38,405 bases of DNA from a virus, in the IMG/VR virus record IMGVR_UViG_3300043775_002130, positions 1 to 38,405 of that record. One strand, written 5' to 3'. The position numbers and the translations under genes were made by a program. This document shows positions 11,187-38,022 of the stretch, piece by piece. Below the pieces are notes generated by a model, which did no database searches, was not told the DNA's origin, and saw only the letters and a list, made by a program, of their open reading frames with translations. Numbering within the stretch: position 1 is the first letter of the stretch; the number at the start of each line of letters is the position of its first letter.

Positions 11187-11882
11187 ATGCGCGCCTTTGC
11201 CGACCTCCTAGAGACGACGGCTGCGGCGACCGACGACGCCACCAACCGGTCTCTGACGACCTCGACAAAGGTCAAAGAGGCGCTCCGGATCACCGACTCC
11301 AATTCCGACACCATCATCGCCGCTCTGATACCGCGCGCCACCGCCCTGATCGTGGCTTGGTGCCGGCTGGCGCGCGACGCGTCCGGCGCCAAGCCGACCT
11401 TTGCCCGCGAGACGCTGCGTGCGACGTGGCACGCCGAAACGATCGCCGGTCGCGGCAGCGAACTGTACCTGCCGTGGCGCGTCCCGCTCTTCTCCATCGA
11501 CTCGGTCGTCGAGGCGGAAACAACGCTTGCGGTGAGCACCGACTACGTCGTGCTCGGCTCGACGCCGGGCGTCCTGCGCCGCATCTCGACCGATACGCCG
11601 ATCGAATGGAGCACCGGCAAGATCGTGGTGACGTTTAAGGCGGGCTTCGCCGTCACGACTTCGCTCGCCACCAACATCGACGCGGCGATCGAGGCCGCCT
11701 GCATCGAGCAGATCAAGGGGATGCTTTTTGCCGCCGACCGCGATCCCACTATCCGGTCGGAGAATGTGCCGGACCTCGCGGCCGTCTCCTACTCGGTGCC
11801 GGGCGGCGACGTGATGGGCGCCAACGTGCTCCTCCCGGCGGTGCGCGACATGCTCGCGCCTTGGCGTAATCCTGCGCCGTGA
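11187..11882 (+). CDS. Head-tail connector (gp6-like adaptor)
   Basis: A 231-residue protein. ATG 11187 is preferred, with GCGGAG (11174-11179) 7 bases upstream. The N-terminal helical part TKVKEALRITDSNSDTIIAALIPRATALI is the signature of HK97 gp6/SPP1 gp15-type connector proteins. The C-terminal half (IEAACIEQIKGMLFAADRDP...) is the usual second helical block. It should form the ring below the portal that closes the filled head. Position between head and neck genes agrees. The stop overlaps the next GTG start. Confidence 0.8.
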   Translation: MRAFADLLETTAAATDDATNRSLTTSTKVKEALRITDSNSDTIIAALIPRATALIVAWCRLARDASGAKPTFARETLRATWHAETIAGRGSELYLPWRVPLFSIDSVVEAETTLAVSTDYVVLGSTPGVLRRISTDTPIEWSTGKIVVTFKAGFAVTTSLATNIDAAIEAACIEQIKGMLFAADRDPTIRSENVPDLAAVSYSVPGGDVMGANVLLPAVRDMLAPWRNPAP

Positions 11883-33112: not shown

Positions 33113-33148
33113 TTGCATTCGGTCTGCCCGTGTCCTAAATACCGGACA
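33113..33148 (+). promoter_or_regulatory. Promoter TTGCAT-17-TAAATA with inverted repeat over the -10
   Basis: -35 TTGCAT (33113-33118), a 17-bp spacer and -10 TAAATA (33136-33141) form a good vegetative-type promoter for the plus-strand genes at 33197. The inverted repeat TGTCC-TAAATACC-GGACA (33131-33148) exactly spans the -10. A bound regulator would therefore block transcription. The small HTH protein at 33649 is the obvious candidate to bind it. Confidence 0.7.
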
Positions 33149-33196
33149 TGGACGGGCGCTGAGGCCCGCCTGATCTGGGCAGGAGGCCCGACCAAC

Positions 33197-33412
33197 ATGA
33201 CGAACCTTCGCAAAGTCACCGAGTGCATCGCCAAGGATGGCTCTACCTATTACAGCGCGGGCGGCGATAGCCGCTTCCGCAGCAAGGCTGCAGCCCAGCA
33301 AGCCGTCGACGCCCATGCCCGCTTTGCAACGGCCGTGAACCGCGAAGGCATGACCGAAGAGGAGCGCGCGGGAGCCTTCGTCGCCTTCTTCGCCAAGCGC
33401 GAGGAGGCCTAA
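33197..33412 (+). CDS. Small unknown protein, first gene of the plus-strand island
   Basis: A 71-residue protein with AGGAGG (33181-33186) upstream of ATG 33197. It reads TNLRKVTECIAKDGSTYYSAGGDSRFRSKAAAQQAVDAHARF then a charged helix ending KREEA. No known family seen. It is transcribed against the surrounding early operon from its own promoter, so it is likely an independently acquired (moron-type) gene, perhaps expressed in the prophage. Confidence 0.7.
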   Translation: MTNLRKVTECIAKDGSTYYSAGGDSRFRSKAAAQQAVDAHARFATAVNREGMTEEERAGAFVAFFAKREEA

Positions 33413-33415
33413 GCC

Positions 33416-33652
33416 ATGACCAAGATCGAATGGCAGGCGACGCGGACATGGTGCGACGACCTCGCGGCCGTCACCGGCATGGACCACGACTATCCGACCG
33501 GCTTCACCTACCGCGACGGTGGCGAACACATCGAAGCGCGCGAGTGGGGCTTTGGGGTCGTGATCGGCACCACGGAAGCCGAGTTCAAGACGCTGGAAGA
33601 GGCCGAGGATTACCTTTGGGCCGAATGGGCGGACGGCGAGTGCAACGGATGA
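33416..33652 (+). CDS. Small acidic unknown protein of the plus-strand island
   Basis: A 78-residue protein with GAGGAGG (33401-33407) upstream. It is strongly acidic and aromatic: TKIEWQATRTWCDDLAAVTGMDHDYPTGFTY...EAEFKTLEEAEDYLWAEWADGE. Compact, acidic proteins of this size are typical of phage inhibitors that mimic nucleic acid or bind host nucleases, but no family is recognised. Overlaps the HTH gene start by ATGA. Confidence 0.7.
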   Translation: MTKIEWQATRTWCDDLAAVTGMDHDYPTGFTYRDGGEHIEAREWGFGVVIGTTEAEFKTLEEAEDYLWAEWADGECNG

Positions 33653-33864
33653 CCCCCGCTCTCCTCCGCGAGGCCGGCGAGGCCATGTACGGCCCGCGCT
33701 GGCAATCCGACCTTTCCCGCGACCTGAAGGTGTCAGACCGGACGGTGCGGCGCTGGGATGCGGGATCGAATGAAATTCCGGCCGGCGTCTGGGCCGAGAT
33801 CCGGGCGCTGCTGAAGGCGCGCGGGCTGGCGCTGGCATCGGTGAGGCGGAAGCTGCCGAGGTGA
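33649..33864 (+). CDS. Small HTH protein, possible aca-type autoregulator
   Basis: A 71-residue protein, ATG 33649 coupled to the gene before it. The helix-turn-helix is WQSDLSRDLKVSDRTVRRWDAG, followed by a second helical part (VWAEIRALLKARGLALASV) with basic end. It is a Cro-sized DNA-binding protein. Its place as last gene of a short operon, with an inverted repeat over the operon's -10, suggests it autorepresses this operon, as aca proteins do. Its stop abuts the orphan methyltransferase stop on the other strand. Confidence 0.75.
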   Translation: MTPALLREAGEAMYGPRWQSDLSRDLKVSDRTVRRWDAGSNEIPAGVWAEIRALLKARGLALASVRRKLPR

Positions 33865-33981: not shown

Positions 33982-34656
33982 ATGGCACCCAAGAGAACCA
34001 ATCGCCCTTGCTCCATCGACGGATGCGGCAGAAGACACGCTGCACACGGACTTTGCTTGATGCACTACAAGCGCCAGATGCGGCATGGATCGCCTGAATA
34101 TAGGTGGGCTGGCCGCGTCGTTGGCCGCTCCTGTAAACACTGTGACCGTCCTGTCACGGCACGCGAGATGTGCGTCCGGCACTATCAGATGTGGCATCGG
34201 CACGGTGACGCGCTTTACGCGGATAAACAGAAGAAGCACGGCCTGCCGAGCGGCACGCACGAGCGGCACGGCTACTTGATGGTATGCCCTGTGGTGGACG
34301 CGATCACGAAAGCCGCGCCAGTCACAAATCCAGCCATTGAGAAGGGCGACCGGCCCCACGCCGCGATGATTAAGAACCACGGCCTTCGGGATGGCTCGCA
34401 GCGATACAGGCGCGAATGGGAACACCGCAAAATTGCAAAGGCGAGGAAGGGTGAAATCGTTCACCACATCGACCTGGACGCCGCCAACAACGATCCCTCT
34501 AATCTCCATGTGTTTCCCTCTCCAGCGGCGCATTCGACGGCGCACCGTTCGCTTGAGCGGGCCGCCTGCGCTTTGCTGCGGGCTGGGCTTCTGTTCTTTG
34601 ATCGAGCGGCTGGAGTTTATCGACCAACGCAATCCGTTGACCGATCCACCTCATAA
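33982..34656 (+). CDS. HNH homing-type endonuclease with two zinc-finger modules
   Basis: A 224-residue protein from ATG 33982, 10-16 bases past the orphan methyltransferase end. Two Cys/His modules open it: PCSIDGCGRRHAAHGLCLMHY and SCKHCDRPVTAREMCVRHY. The nuclease domain at the end has EIVHHIDLDAANNDPSNLHVF (His-His, Asn, then His in the following AHSTAH), typical of free-standing phage HNH homing enzymes. Lower local GC (57% in a counted line) than the backbone. The C-terminal 50 residues overlap antisense with the end of the methyltransferase gene. Likely cuts motif X DNA of intron-less relatives. Confidence 0.85.
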   Translation: MAPKRTNRPCSIDGCGRRHAAHGLCLMHYKRQMRHGSPEYRWAGRVVGRSCKHCDRPVTAREMCVRHYQMWHRHGDALYADKQKKHGLPSGTHERHGYLMVCPVVDAITKAAPVTNPAIEKGDRPHAAMIKNHGLRDGSQRYRREWEHRKIAKARKGEIVHHIDLDAANNDPSNLHVFPSPAAHSTAHRSLERAACALLRAGLLFFDRAAGVYRPTQSVDRSTS

Positions 34657-36118
34657 CGGGAACAGCCATACTATTCCCCAAAGCCTTATATCTGTTTCCG
34701 TCCGCTGCCGGCTTTCCCCGATACGGGACCAGCGTGTAGTCGTCGGGAAACCCCTGAAGGCGCTCGCATTCTCGAGGTGTGAGGCGGCGGACGGCGGTGG
34801 CGGCGACATAGCTTCGCGACGACCCGCCAGATGCCGCCCTGATGTTCGCCGTGTCGTGCGGCCCCTCAAATTGAGCGCCGCCCTCCCTGCCGCGGAGGTC
34901 AAAGGCGACGGCAGGCGTCTGGCTCTTGATAAGCGCAGGCGAGAAGTCCTCGTGCATAGCAAGGTTCTGCGTCGCTCCGCGCTGCCACTCAAAGGCAATC
35001 GCCGGCATCACCCCGCCGTTCGCGTGGCTCTTGTCATGGCCGCCGGCGCGCAATGTCGGGGAGATAGGCCCGGCATCAGCCCCGTGGTCTTTTACGGAAA
35101 AGGCAATCGCGGGGGGATGCGCTCCCGCAGCAAGCGGATGGCATGGATCGCCCGACTTCGGCTTGCTGTAGTTCGCCGCGCTGGTGATCTGCGTGGTGTC
35201 GAATGGCACCGGCTCAACGATGTAATCGCCGCCCTGGTTTCCGCCGACAGGGCCGCCGGCCATGATTGGCTGGGCGATGTCTGTCTCGCGCGCCTTGTAG
35301 TCCTTGCCGCTGTTCATCGGCATGATGGAGAAGGCGACGGGAACCAGCGGCGTGCCGCGTCCTGTGCCGTCCTCGCTGGCGTCGAAGCCTTCGGCGCGGA
35401 GGGCGTGGGTAACGAACGTCTCGGATTCAAAGTCACGCCGGCCAGAGTGGGCGGTAAGACAATGGGAAATCAGGCCGCCGTCGCAGTCAAAGTCGGTTCC
35501 GAGTCCGCCACCGCCTTTAGTGCGTGCGCTAATGGTGGGGGCAACTCCTTCCCCCGCTTCGCGGCGCGGCGCAGGATGCCCGAGCAGGCTTTCGCGCTCA
35601 AAAATAACCGCTGCGGCACGTCGCCAGTCTCCAAGACATCCGACAACGAACACGCGCGCCCGTCGCTGGGCCAGGTTGAAGTATTGAGCGTCAAGAACCC
35701 GGTAGGCGAACCCATACCCGAGTTCTGCCAGCCCTCCGAGGAAGGCTCCAAGCGCCCGTCCTTCGTCTGACGACAGGACACCGGGGACATTCTCCCAAAC
35801 GATCCACCGTGGCTGCGTTCGCGCAGCCAGGCGTAGGAACTCAAGTGTGAGGTTCCCTCGATCGCCAGTAATTCCTGCGCGAAGTCCGGCGACGCTGAAG
35901 TCCTGGCAGGGGGTGCCTCCGACAAGAAGGTCAATTGATCCATAGTCGTCGGCTCCGATCGTGGTGAAGTCTCCGTGCAGCGGGACGGTAGGGTAGTGGT
36001 GCGCCAGCACGGCGCGCGGGAACGGGTCGATCTCGCTGAAGGCAACGGGCGTCCAGCCAAGCGGATGCCAAGCGACCGTCGCGGCCTCGATGCCGGAACA
36101 GACGCTCAGATACCTCAT
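34499..36118 (-). CDS. DNA (cytosine-5-)-methyltransferase
   Basis: A 539-residue enzyme from ATG 36118. Motifs in order: YLSVCSGIEAATVAW (I), GGTPCQDFSVAG with catalytic Cys71 (IV), WENV (109-111, VI), QRRARVF (151-157, VIII), then a long variable region (about 180-430) with repeated AF...PTLRAGG-like segments as target recognition, RECERLQGFPDDY (IX) and RYKALGNSMAVPVM (X, from 476). It should methylate phage DNA to resist host restriction. The end after motif X (about 480-539, basic and Pro/Ala-rich) is unusual and is antisense to the HNH gene. Stop at 34499. Confidence 0.93.
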   Translation of the reverse strand: MRYLSVCSGIEAATVAWHPLGWTPVAFSEIDPFPRAVLAHHYPTVPLHGDFTTIGADDYGSIDLLVGGTPCQDFSVAGLRAGITGDRGNLTLEFLRLAARTQPRWIVWENVPGVLSSDEGRALGAFLGGLAELGYGFAYRVLDAQYFNLAQRRARVFVVGCLGDWRRAAAVIFERESLLGHPAPRREAGEGVAPTISARTKGGGGLGTDFDCDGGLISHCLTAHSGRRDFESETFVTHALRAEGFDASEDGTGRGTPLVPVAFSIMPMNSGKDYKARETDIAQPIMAGGPVGGNQGGDYIVEPVPFDTTQITSAANYSKPKSGDPCHPLAAGAHPPAIAFSVKDHGADAGPISPTLRAGGHDKSHANGGVMPAIAFEWQRGATQNLAMHEDFSPALIKSQTPAVAFDLRGREGGAQFEGPHDTANIRAASGGSSRSYVAATAVRRLTPRECERLQGFPDDYTLVPYRGKPAADGNRYKALGNSMAVPVMRWIGQRIALVDKLQPLDQRTEAQPAAKRRRPAQANGAPSNAPLERETHGD

Positions 36119-36288
36119 GTGCCGGTCCTTGCGGCATGCTGCAGGCCCGTTTCCCGGTGCAGGCGGCTGGTGTGATCGACCATGGCCGCGAGCGTGCCGA
36201 CAAAGGGCGTTCCCATATCCTCGCGGATGACGCCGTCGATGATGGGCCGCACGAACCAGAGCGGCTGGCCGTTGGTGCGCGCGCTCAT
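36115..36288 (-). CDS. Small early protein before the methyltransferase, unknown
   Basis: A 57-residue protein from ATG 36288, overlapping the methyltransferase start by ATGA and the preceding stop by one base. It reads SARTNGQPLWFVRPIIDGVIREDMGTPFVGTLAAMVDHTSRLHRE. Function unknown. The tight coupling suggests co-expression with the methyltransferase, perhaps as an accessory. Confidence 0.65.
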   Translation of the reverse strand: MSARTNGQPLWFVRPIIDGVIREDMGTPFVGTLAAMVDHTSRLHRETGLQHAARTGT

Positions 36289-36536
36289 CAGGCCGCACTC
36301 ACCGGCTCGCCGGCGCGCTCCAGCGGCCAGCACAACCGCGCCTGCGCCTCGCTGCCTGGCATCGAGGCCGGGGTGACGATCACGATGAGGTCTTTCGCCC
36401 GGACGGTGCGGGCCACGGTCTCGCCGTCGAACTTGACCTCGACGAAGTTGACGCCGGCGTGCGCGACGGTGCCGGCCCCGTAGGACCGCAGCGGGTTGCG
36501 GTGGATCACGCGGGCGTTGCGGGTGATGTTGGACAT
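36288..36536 (-). CDS. First gene of the leftward early operon, unknown
   Basis: An 82-residue protein from ATG 36536 with ribosome site GGGAGGG on its strand (36541-36547). Text includes RNARVIHRNPLRSYGAGTVAHAGVNFVEVKFDGETVARTVRAKDLIVI, a beta-rich SH3-like pattern. It is the first gene after the leftward promoter, so expressed earliest. Function not recognised. Confidence 0.65.
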   Translation of the reverse strand: MSNITRNARVIHRNPLRSYGAGTVAHAGVNFVEVKFDGETVARTVRAKDLIVIVTPASMPGSEAQARLCWPLERAGEPVSAA

Positions 36537-36972: not shown

Positions 36973-37695
36973 TTAGAACCTCGTAAAACCCAATATAACA
37001 CGCCCGTTGATGTGCGCCTCATCGACGGTGCGCTCATAGGTTTCATACTTCGGGTTATCGCTCTTGATGCGAACGGTCGGCGGGTTGCTGCCGGGGATGA
37101 GCTCGACGCGCTTTATGACCAACCCCATGCCGTCCCAAACGTAGAAGATGCCCGGCGGGGTGGGGCGCTTGTCGTGAATGTGCACCATGACTTTTTGGCC
37201 GGGGTAAAGCGTCGGCATCATCGAATCGCCAAGCACTTCGGCGATGATGACCTCGCCAGCGTTGGCGCCGAATGCCTGGCGGAAGCCAGCGGACGGGAAA
37301 CTATATTGGCCGGTCATCGCGTCGACCGCATCGGCTTGCGTAATGAGGAATTGACCATCCGCGCCATGGCCCGCCATAGCGTGCACCTCGAGCTCAGGCA
37401 CCATGACCGAAGCCTTATCGGCAAATAATAATTGCTTAGCGATAGGTTCTGGGCGGTCATCAGGATCGACGCCCTTCGGCGGTGTGCCCTTGCCGTAGAG
37501 CAACCATTCCACCGAAACGCCAGTGCGCCGACCGGCTCGCGCGTACAAGCTTGCGGCCGCCTTGGGGATGGAATCGCGCGCAATGTGCTGGCGCATCGTT
37601 GCCTCTTGGATCGTGGCGGCGCGCGCCAAGTCCGAAAGGCTTTCAAAGCCGGCGGCTTCGGCTAGTGCGCGCAACCGGTCGGCGGGACTGCTCAT
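36973..37695 (-). CDS. CI-like repressor with S24 LexA-type peptidase domain
   Basis: A 240-residue protein from ATG 37695. N-terminal helix-turn-helix (about 5-60: LSDLARAATIQEATMRQHIAR...SVEWLLYGKG). The S24 domain has the nucleophile Ser158 in EVLGDSMMP and the base Lys195 in LVIKRVE, with a plausible Ala108-Gly109 self-cleavage pair in HAMAGHG. It should maintain lysogeny and be inactivated by RecA-stimulated self-cleavage after DNA damage. It probably binds the AACGTCACGC motif at both early promoters. Divergent from the Cro-like gene. Confidence 0.92.
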   Translation of the reverse strand: MSSPADRLRALAEAAGFESLSDLARAATIQEATMRQHIARDSIPKAAASLYARAGRRTGVSVEWLLYGKGTPPKGVDPDDRPEPIAKQLLFADKASVMVPELEVHAMAGHGADGQFLITQADAVDAMTGQYSFPSAGFRQAFGANAGEVIIAEVLGDSMMPTLYPGQKVMVHIHDKRPTPPGIFYVWDGMGLVIKRVELIPGSNPPTVRIKSDNPKYETYERTVDEAHINGRVILGFTRF

Positions 37696-37704
37696 GGGCA
37701 CAAA

Positions 37705-37763
37705 GCGTAACGCAGCGAGCGTGACGTTAGGTGTTGACGTGTCATATGACGAAATGTAACGTC
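37705..37763 (+). promoter_or_regulatory. Rightward early promoter and operators between repressor and Cro-like gene
   Basis: -35 TTGACG (37734-37739), 17-bp spacer and -10 TAACGT (37757-37762) drive the Cro-like gene. GCGTGACGTT (37719-37728) is the exact inverse of the leftward operator core AACGTCACGC. GCGTAACGC (37705-37713) and AACGTCCGCGC (37758-37768) are partial copies. The predicted transcript starts almost at the ATG (37771), so the Cro message may be leaderless. No strong minus-strand promoter for the repressor is obvious. Confidence 0.75.
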
Positions 37764-37770
37764 CGCGCCT

Positions 37771-38022
37771 ATGGAAACCTTCAGCGACTTGGTCGATGGC
37801 TTTGGTGGTGCCGCAAAAATGGCACCCCAAATCAGTGAAAGCCCCAACACCATTAGGCAGTGGGTCGCGCGCGGAAGCGTCCCGGCCCGATACTGGCAGC
37901 AGATAATTGAGGCTGCGCAGCGGCTAAGTGTTCGCGGCGTCACGTATGCCGCACTGGCTGAACTTGCGAATCGAAAAAAGGCAACGCCACCGCGCCGCCA
38001 GCTTCGGAAGAAGGCGGCCTGA
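37771..38022 (+). CDS. Cro-like carph-isopro domain DNA-binding protein
   Basis: An 83-residue protein from ATG 37771 with no Shine-Dalgarno. It reads FSDLVDGFGGAAKMAPQISESPNTIRQWVARGSVPARYWQQII, the carph-isopro/Cro-type helix-turn-helix in which RGS(I/V)PARYW is the hallmark. Length and divergent position opposite the repressor identify it as the Cro analogue. It probably reduces repressor synthesis during lytic growth. A basic tail (RKKATPPRRQLRKKAA) may add non-specific DNA affinity. Confidence 0.85.
   Translation: METFSDLVDGFGGAAKMAPQISESPNTIRQWVARGSVPARYWQQIIEAAQRLSVRGVTYAALAELANRKKATPPRRQLRKKAA

Follow-up and report, generated by a model that had tools for sequence, protein, structure and literature searches.

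A conserved operator, a two-hairpin leader and exchangeable small genes mark an aca-like candidate anti-defence slot in a temperate phage

What role could be played by three small genes that stand, in the genome of a temperate phage, against the direction of the early genes around them? The locus belongs to a virus record of 38,405 bases, the whole of which was analysed and is called the window here, and the phage carries an integrase. The three genes lie on the plus strand and are flanked on both sides by minus-strand early genes. The first (33197-33412) encodes a 71-residue protein of unassigned function (pI 7.9, no family match), and the second (33416-33652), which has its own Shine-Dalgarno sequence, a 78-residue protein (pI 4.1, net charge -13) for which no homologue was found; these two are termed cargo genes below. 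The third (33649-33864) encodes a 71-residue helix-turn-helix (HTH) regulator (pI 11.1) of four helices with the recognition helix SDRTVRRW. Its start codon overlaps the stop codon of cargo gene 2 as ATGA, which makes translational coupling of the two genes plausible. A longer frame opening at TTG 33113 was discarded for the first gene, whose start is fixed by the position of the leader at ATG 33197. An earlier note had reported these coordinates, the ATGA overlap, the acidity of the second protein and the opposite orientation of the operon, together with a promoter of its own and an inverted repeat over the -10 element; all of this was recovered, the promoter by way of its conservation in relatives. 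As for the neighbourhood, a C-5 cytosine methyltransferase gene (34499-36298, minus strand) adjoins the operon, and a ParB-N6/N4 methyltransferase gene lies elsewhere in the phage (4055-5368, plus strand).

The promoter consists of the -35 element TTGCAT (33113-33118, plus strand) and, 17 bases from it, the -10 element TAAATA (33136-33141), which is covered by the inverted repeat TGTCCTAAATACCGGACA (33131-33148, plus strand; TGTCCTA and CCGGACA around AATA). A consensus promoter scan of the window operon returned no sigma-70 site, because both hexamers are weak. Sister cassettes carry TTGCAT or TTGCGT as their -35 element and more distant ones TTGACA or TTGACG, all at the same spacing, and the promoter therefore rests on conservation. 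The repeat pattern TGTCC-N8-GGACA occurs a single time in the whole window. Throughout the family, an operator with the consensus TGTCCTA-N4-TAGGACA precedes the cargo genes; with two specificity classes counted together, the operator is conserved in 55 non-redundant loci, and phages, prophages and plasmids supply more than 50 non-redundant loci with the cassette of operator, leader and HTH gene. The operator usually covers the -10 element, with a TTGACA-like -35 element about 17 bases before; in a small number of loci, its position is between the -35 element and a -10 element that is displaced.

Its association with the HTH gene is tight. Specifically, the 1.1-kb stretches that precede the HTH gene in relatives (96 kb in total) contain the exact repeat 32 times, versus twice in 441 kb elsewhere (p = 5e-22). 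When 2.9 million virus contigs were scanned for the perfect operator alone, 16 contigs were found, nine of which also carry the -35 element and the leader; in eight of these nine the HTH gene follows, and the remaining one is cut off by the end of the fetched stretch. Within 2 kb of many HTH relatives of 41-50% identity, a recognisable operator was not found. One locus, L084, holds two full operators about 970 bases apart, such that one HTH gene may control two transcription units. A literature search found no paper that names this operator. Because the operator lies over the -10 element, autorepression at this site is very probable.

The argument that the HTH protein reads this operator comes from matched changes in the two partners. 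Besides the main operator, there is a second class, TGTCGTA-N4-TACGACA, and a third, TGCGCCTA-N4-TAGGCGCA, which was found in L031, L093, L107 and L013 (truncated in the last) and which accompanies recognition helices of the GDRRVREW type and a changed second hairpin. Where the base after TGTC is C, the recognition helix reads R-x-x-R (46 of 46 non-redundant loci), and where it is G, the helix reads R-x-x-Q (nine of nine), without exception. The corresponding Fisher value for C with Arg (46:0) and G with Gln (9:0) is 1.6e-10, a figure that overstates independence because the tree of these short proteins is weakly resolved; a tree for which that column was masked requires at least two events of change. 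Among the hits of a search with the G-type operator, only two proved to be cassettes, and these were already in the set. The perfect match between base and residue, otherwise hard to explain, strongly supports the view that the HTH protein reads its operator, and it provides ready-made controls for binding experiments.

Between the operator and the first gene, the window holds a two-hairpin leader (33150-33190) that had been overlooked in the earlier note. Hairpin 1 (33150-33170, plus strand) is built from GG, a bulged A, CGGGC, the loop GCTGAG, GCCCG and CC, and hairpin 2 (33176-33190, plus strand) from TGGGC and GCCCG around AGGAG, which places the Shine-Dalgarno sequence in the loop. The anatomy of hairpin 1 is shared by about 40 distinct leaders with compensatory changes: an outer and an inner stem flank the bulged A, which is present in 32 of the 44 leaders parsed, and the loop reads, for example, AATCAG or ATCGG. 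Hairpin 2 has a stem of 4-5 bp, which varies among relatives as GGGC/GCCC, TGGC/GCCA, GGGT/ACCC or CGGC/GCCG around an AGGAG-type loop. A MAFFT alignment of all leaders evaluated with RNAalifold gave two pairs only, because the length of hairpin 1 differs between subclasses, and a model from one subclass was used instead. Across 61 distinct rows of the resulting alignment, the covariation score was 0.371 versus 0.100 after shuffling and about 0.02 with the partners slid; fitting to a model favours structure, and the slid controls nevertheless fail clearly. In an alignment of 14 leaders made from sequence only, the score was 0.211 versus 0.073.

Further support for a role at the RNA level is provided by three loci (L057, L075 and L072) in which a second leader stands before a later cargo gene, with neither an operator nor a good -35 element in the preceding 75 bases; since these internal leaders lack a promoter and an operator, the leader appears to work as RNA, and there is every likelihood that it is a functional RNA element. 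A 20-base leader word searched alone found eight contigs, two of them near-identical, and all eight then carry the HTH gene. Matches to a leader 17-mer in coding sequence of unrelated contigs lacked an operator and were discarded. Rfam contains no such leader family, judging by the window stretch and twelve relatives, the relatives returning only tRNA and an unrelated sRNA. In the window itself (33149-33200), both hairpins have GGGC/GCCC stems and can pair with each other, and it is this inter-hairpin pairing that has the lowest energy when the leader is folded as a whole; switching of the window leader between two folds is possible. Elsewhere, contig L153 holds two leader-like words (11229-11245 and 11564-11580), each shortly before a start codon; neither operator nor HTH gene was seen on this contig, which may carry another regulated gene array.

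The HTH family was assembled from 98 related loci fetched from virus contigs and genomes, and also occurs in phages and plasmids of named hosts. The gene is present once per genome in ten host genomes, one with two copies excepted, and a sample of 384 genomes from one class yielded the family in five, the seed genome not counted. Such rarity is what an accessory gene on mobile elements would be expected to show. Relatives on Klebsiella and Acinetobacter plasmids are distant and stand in contexts without a recognisable cassette, and they were not accepted as cassette members. In L010, L013 and L015, the HTH domain forms the C-terminal end of an extended protein of the phrog_12690 type, resembling a fusion of cargo and regulator.

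AlphaFold2 models the window HTH protein as a four-helix HTH (pLDDT 96.9) of the Cro/C1 class, with Aca10 and Aca2 among its nearest fold neighbours and HigA2 as a further one. Compared with all PDB sequences, a 48-member profile of the family had four Aca2 proteins as its top, if weak, matches (E 0.002-0.004), followed by YdiL, and the near-invariant Arg31 of the window protein aligns with Arg30 of Aca2, a residue required for repression (PMC8434428). Against the Pfam profile Aca2_YdiL (PF08965), the window protein scores 14.2 bits, under the cut-off of 23.8, and 13 of 48 relatives match it at E up to 0.05 (best 1.3e-5); the C-terminal dimerization domain of Aca2 is absent from the AlphaFold2 model, which comprises the four helices only. 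Since it falls below the Pfam cut-off and is without this domain, the family is not Aca2 proper. Kinship with Aca1 was not found either, as Aca1 of phage DMS3 scores 9 bits over just 26 positions of the short helix-turn-helix. For Aca3 to Aca9 the comparison covered Pfam classes and sizes, and the family could be identical with one of these. Because the HTH protein is kin to Aca2, which binds DNA and RNA, it might also bind the leader, with even chances either way.

In contrast to this constant frame, the genes within it are exceptionally variable. One to four small genes lie between the leader and the HTH gene, and in total the cargo amounts to 89 unique proteins (median length 79 residues), which fall into 71 clusters. 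Comparison of closely related DNA reveals how they are exchanged: six near-identical phage contigs are 95-98% identical up to the start codon, continue with four unrelated first genes that have no identity to each other, and become alike again at the second gene or the HTH gene. Similarly, the window and L003 are 81-86% identical in promoter-leader and HTH gene, with unrelated DNA between. Because promoter, leader and HTH gene are constant, the cargo would be exchangeable by recombination. A relative of the first window gene (63% over residues 22-69) is fused in the sister cassettes L019 and L043 to another cargo protein, which is a stand-alone gene in L037 and L038. Among viral contigs, phages and one bacterial class, this fusion was the only relative of the first cargo protein, and none was found for the second; neither resembles a known inhibitor. 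The AlphaFold2 model of the second protein alone (pLDDT 43) was unusable, and no fold search was made from it. PDB matches of this protein to tyrosine kinases and of the L089 cargo to pentatricopeptide repeats were dismissed as chance or repeat artefacts. Library scans of the cargo gave almost only unknown families, the exceptions including J domain, LPD29 and DUF5710 proteins. The L058 cargo (about 2428-2914), a 161-residue protein in the slot with an N-terminal J domain, may recruit host DnaK.

A link to a known inhibitor is provided by L053, whose sole cargo gene, located between a standard operator-leader and the HTH gene, matches a PHROG of type I-E anti-CRISPRs (E 1.4e-4) and, in the PDB, AcrIE3 (E 0.0012). 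With 78 proteins scanned, the chance expectation is about 0.01 such PHROG hits, and the direct alignment gives stronger evidence: the protein is 35% identical to AcrIE3 of phage DMS3 over 51 residues without a gap, and the ungapped score of 80 compares with a maximum of 60 in 20,000 shuffles and at most 39 for other cargo proteins. By this alignment the L053 cargo is an AcrIE3 homologue, and anti-CRISPR activity is predicted for it. It represents the only one of about 71 cargo clusters with a match to known anti-defence proteins, and not all cargo need be anti-defence, because some proteins carry J domain, LPD29 or DUF5710 regions. An anti-defence function is quite likely the main role of the cargo, and the balance also leans towards such a role for the two genes of the window. 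New anti-defence proteins are probably to be found in this slot.

The cassette can be compared with several known systems. In acrIF8-aca2 of the Pectobacterium phage ZF40, too, a small anti-defence gene comes first and the HTH gene last, the operator lies within the core promoter and a stem-loop in the leader precedes the Shine-Dalgarno sequence, and the HTH regions of the two regulators align ungapped over 43 residues. However, ZF40 Aca2 has 116 residues with the C-terminal dimerization domain, whereas the window protein has 71 without it, and the ZF40 operator is of the TTCG/CGAA type and not TGTCCTA-N4-TAGGACA. The ZF40 stem-loop, furthermore, resembles its DNA operator in sequence, while the hairpins of the window cassette are unrelated to the operator, are two in number and present the Shine-Dalgarno sequence in the loop of the second. 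The acrIE3-aca1 locus of the Pseudomonas phage DMS3 arranges its acr and HTH genes in the same order and with the same overlap, and its AcrIE3 is the protein to which the L053 cargo is homologous, but its Aca1 is unlike the window protein beyond the short helix-turn-helix. At aca5 and aca9 loci, a single HTH gene likewise points to small anti-defence genes of many unrelated kinds carried by mobile elements; the portion of that report consulted (Pinilla-Redondo 2020, PMC7648647) does not mention a conserved two-hairpin leader. Known Aca families are characterized by burst expression on entry followed by HTH repression at the operator (PMC9410906).

In the family as a whole, the HTH gene shares an operon with one or more small genes ahead of it, these upstream genes belong to more than one unrelated family, the core promoter contains a conserved inverted repeat whose recognition is suggested by the joint change of operator and helix, and at least one upstream gene is related by homology to a known inhibitor (L053). 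By every feature tested, the data support assigning the window operon to the acr-aca kind, with the activity of its own cargo predicted. The aca-like reading of the earlier note has thereby gained substance, with a conserved core-promoter operator, highly variable small upstream genes, Aca2 as the best solved relatives and one AcrIE3-homologous cargo gene behind it.

The available data can also be read in other ways. The slot could be an autorepressed site for genes of host takeover in general or of lysogenic conversion ('moron' genes), among which anti-defence genes form only a minority, as the extreme diversity of the cargo (J-domain, DUF5710 and LPD29 proteins included) and the confinement of the anti-CRISPR match to one cluster might suggest. 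This is unlikely, given that rapid turnover of tiny proteins at a fixed slot is what an arms race gives, that near-identical phages differ in cargo alone, that the AcrIE3 homologue occupies the standard position and that, as a raw count, 19 of 98 cassette loci have DNA methyltransferase genes or relatives in their fetched flanks. A toxin-antitoxin module of the HigBA/YdaS type, in which a small toxin is followed by an autoregulated HTH antitoxin, is considerably less probable still: searches of Pfam, NCBIfam and PADLOC matched none of the cargo proteins to a toxin family, near-identical phages keep unrelated cargo with one and the same HTH protein, and many operons have two or more cargo genes. 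In its favour, the toxin-first order, the terminal HTH gene and the autoregulated promoter fit HigBA, HigA2 is a structural neighbour, and 32 of 48 HTH members weakly match Pfam YdaS_toxin; the window's own Cro-like protein matches YdaS too, and the match therefore signals only a Cro-like fold. A role of the HTH gene as the Cro-like regulator of lysis and lysogeny, with the small genes being early genes of the usual kind, is scarcely credible, for all that the Cro/C1-class fold and the temperate, integrase-bearing phage would suit it, since a CI repressor (Phage_CI_repr and Peptidase_S24, 36973-37830) is encoded separately in the window with a divergent Cro-like gene (37771-38022), and the HTH family is accessory in the sampled genomes.

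A further alternative concerns the RNA step only and is compatible with the remainder of the best explanation. It holds that the hairpins are read by a host factor of the CsrA/RsmA type, with GGA in the loop, or merely tune ribosome access, and that the HTH protein acts on DNA alone. AGGAG presented in a loop, as in hairpin 2, resembles CsrA sites. Many of the loci lie in Alphaproteobacteria, however, most of which are without CsrA, and the joint travel of two hairpins and a bulged A with the HTH gene suggests a dedicated ligand. Other Aca families are explained by DNA autorepression alone (PMC9410906), while the nearest solved relative, Aca2, binds RNA and represses via both DNA and RNA (Birkholz 2024, as cited in PMC12017499). 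On balance, this alternative is rather doubtful while keeping real weight.

The right answer to the opening question is fairly likely to be an anti-defence operon of the aca-like type whose design is that of a swappable slot. According to this model, the promoter would fire at once upon infection, and the small cargo proteins would block host defences. The HTH protein, encoded last, would then bind the inverted repeat over the -10 element and shut the promoter, so that cargo would be made as a burst and stay low in the lysogen. In an additional RNA layer, the two hairpins, with the Shine-Dalgarno sequence in the second loop, would set or block translation of the cargo genes, with the HTH protein as the likeliest ligand by analogy with Aca2. 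Recombination would exchange cargo genes between the constant parts. A more far-reaching proposal can be advanced tentatively, at somewhat less than an even chance: a minimal, single-domain HTH protein may repress both transcription, at the -10 palindrome, and translation, through a separate and dedicated two-hairpin RNA before the cargo genes, and the DNA-plus-RNA cassette may constitute an expression slot that is portable and in which recombination, anchored in the constant ends, exchanges about 70 anti-defence protein families across mobile elements of Alpha-, Beta- and Gammaproteobacteria.

Many anti-CRISPRs have been discovered through known aca genes. The cassette would add a new marker for anti-defence genes with three independent handles, namely the HTH gene, the 18-base operator and the two-hairpin leader, and it points to about 70 families of small proteins, most of them uncharacterised, that come largely from phages of Alpha- and Betaproteobacteria. 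To our knowledge, control at both DNA and RNA by small HTH proteins is known only for Aca2. Taken together, the findings make it testable whether phages in general use such DNA-plus-RNA control to time and limit their anti-defence genes.
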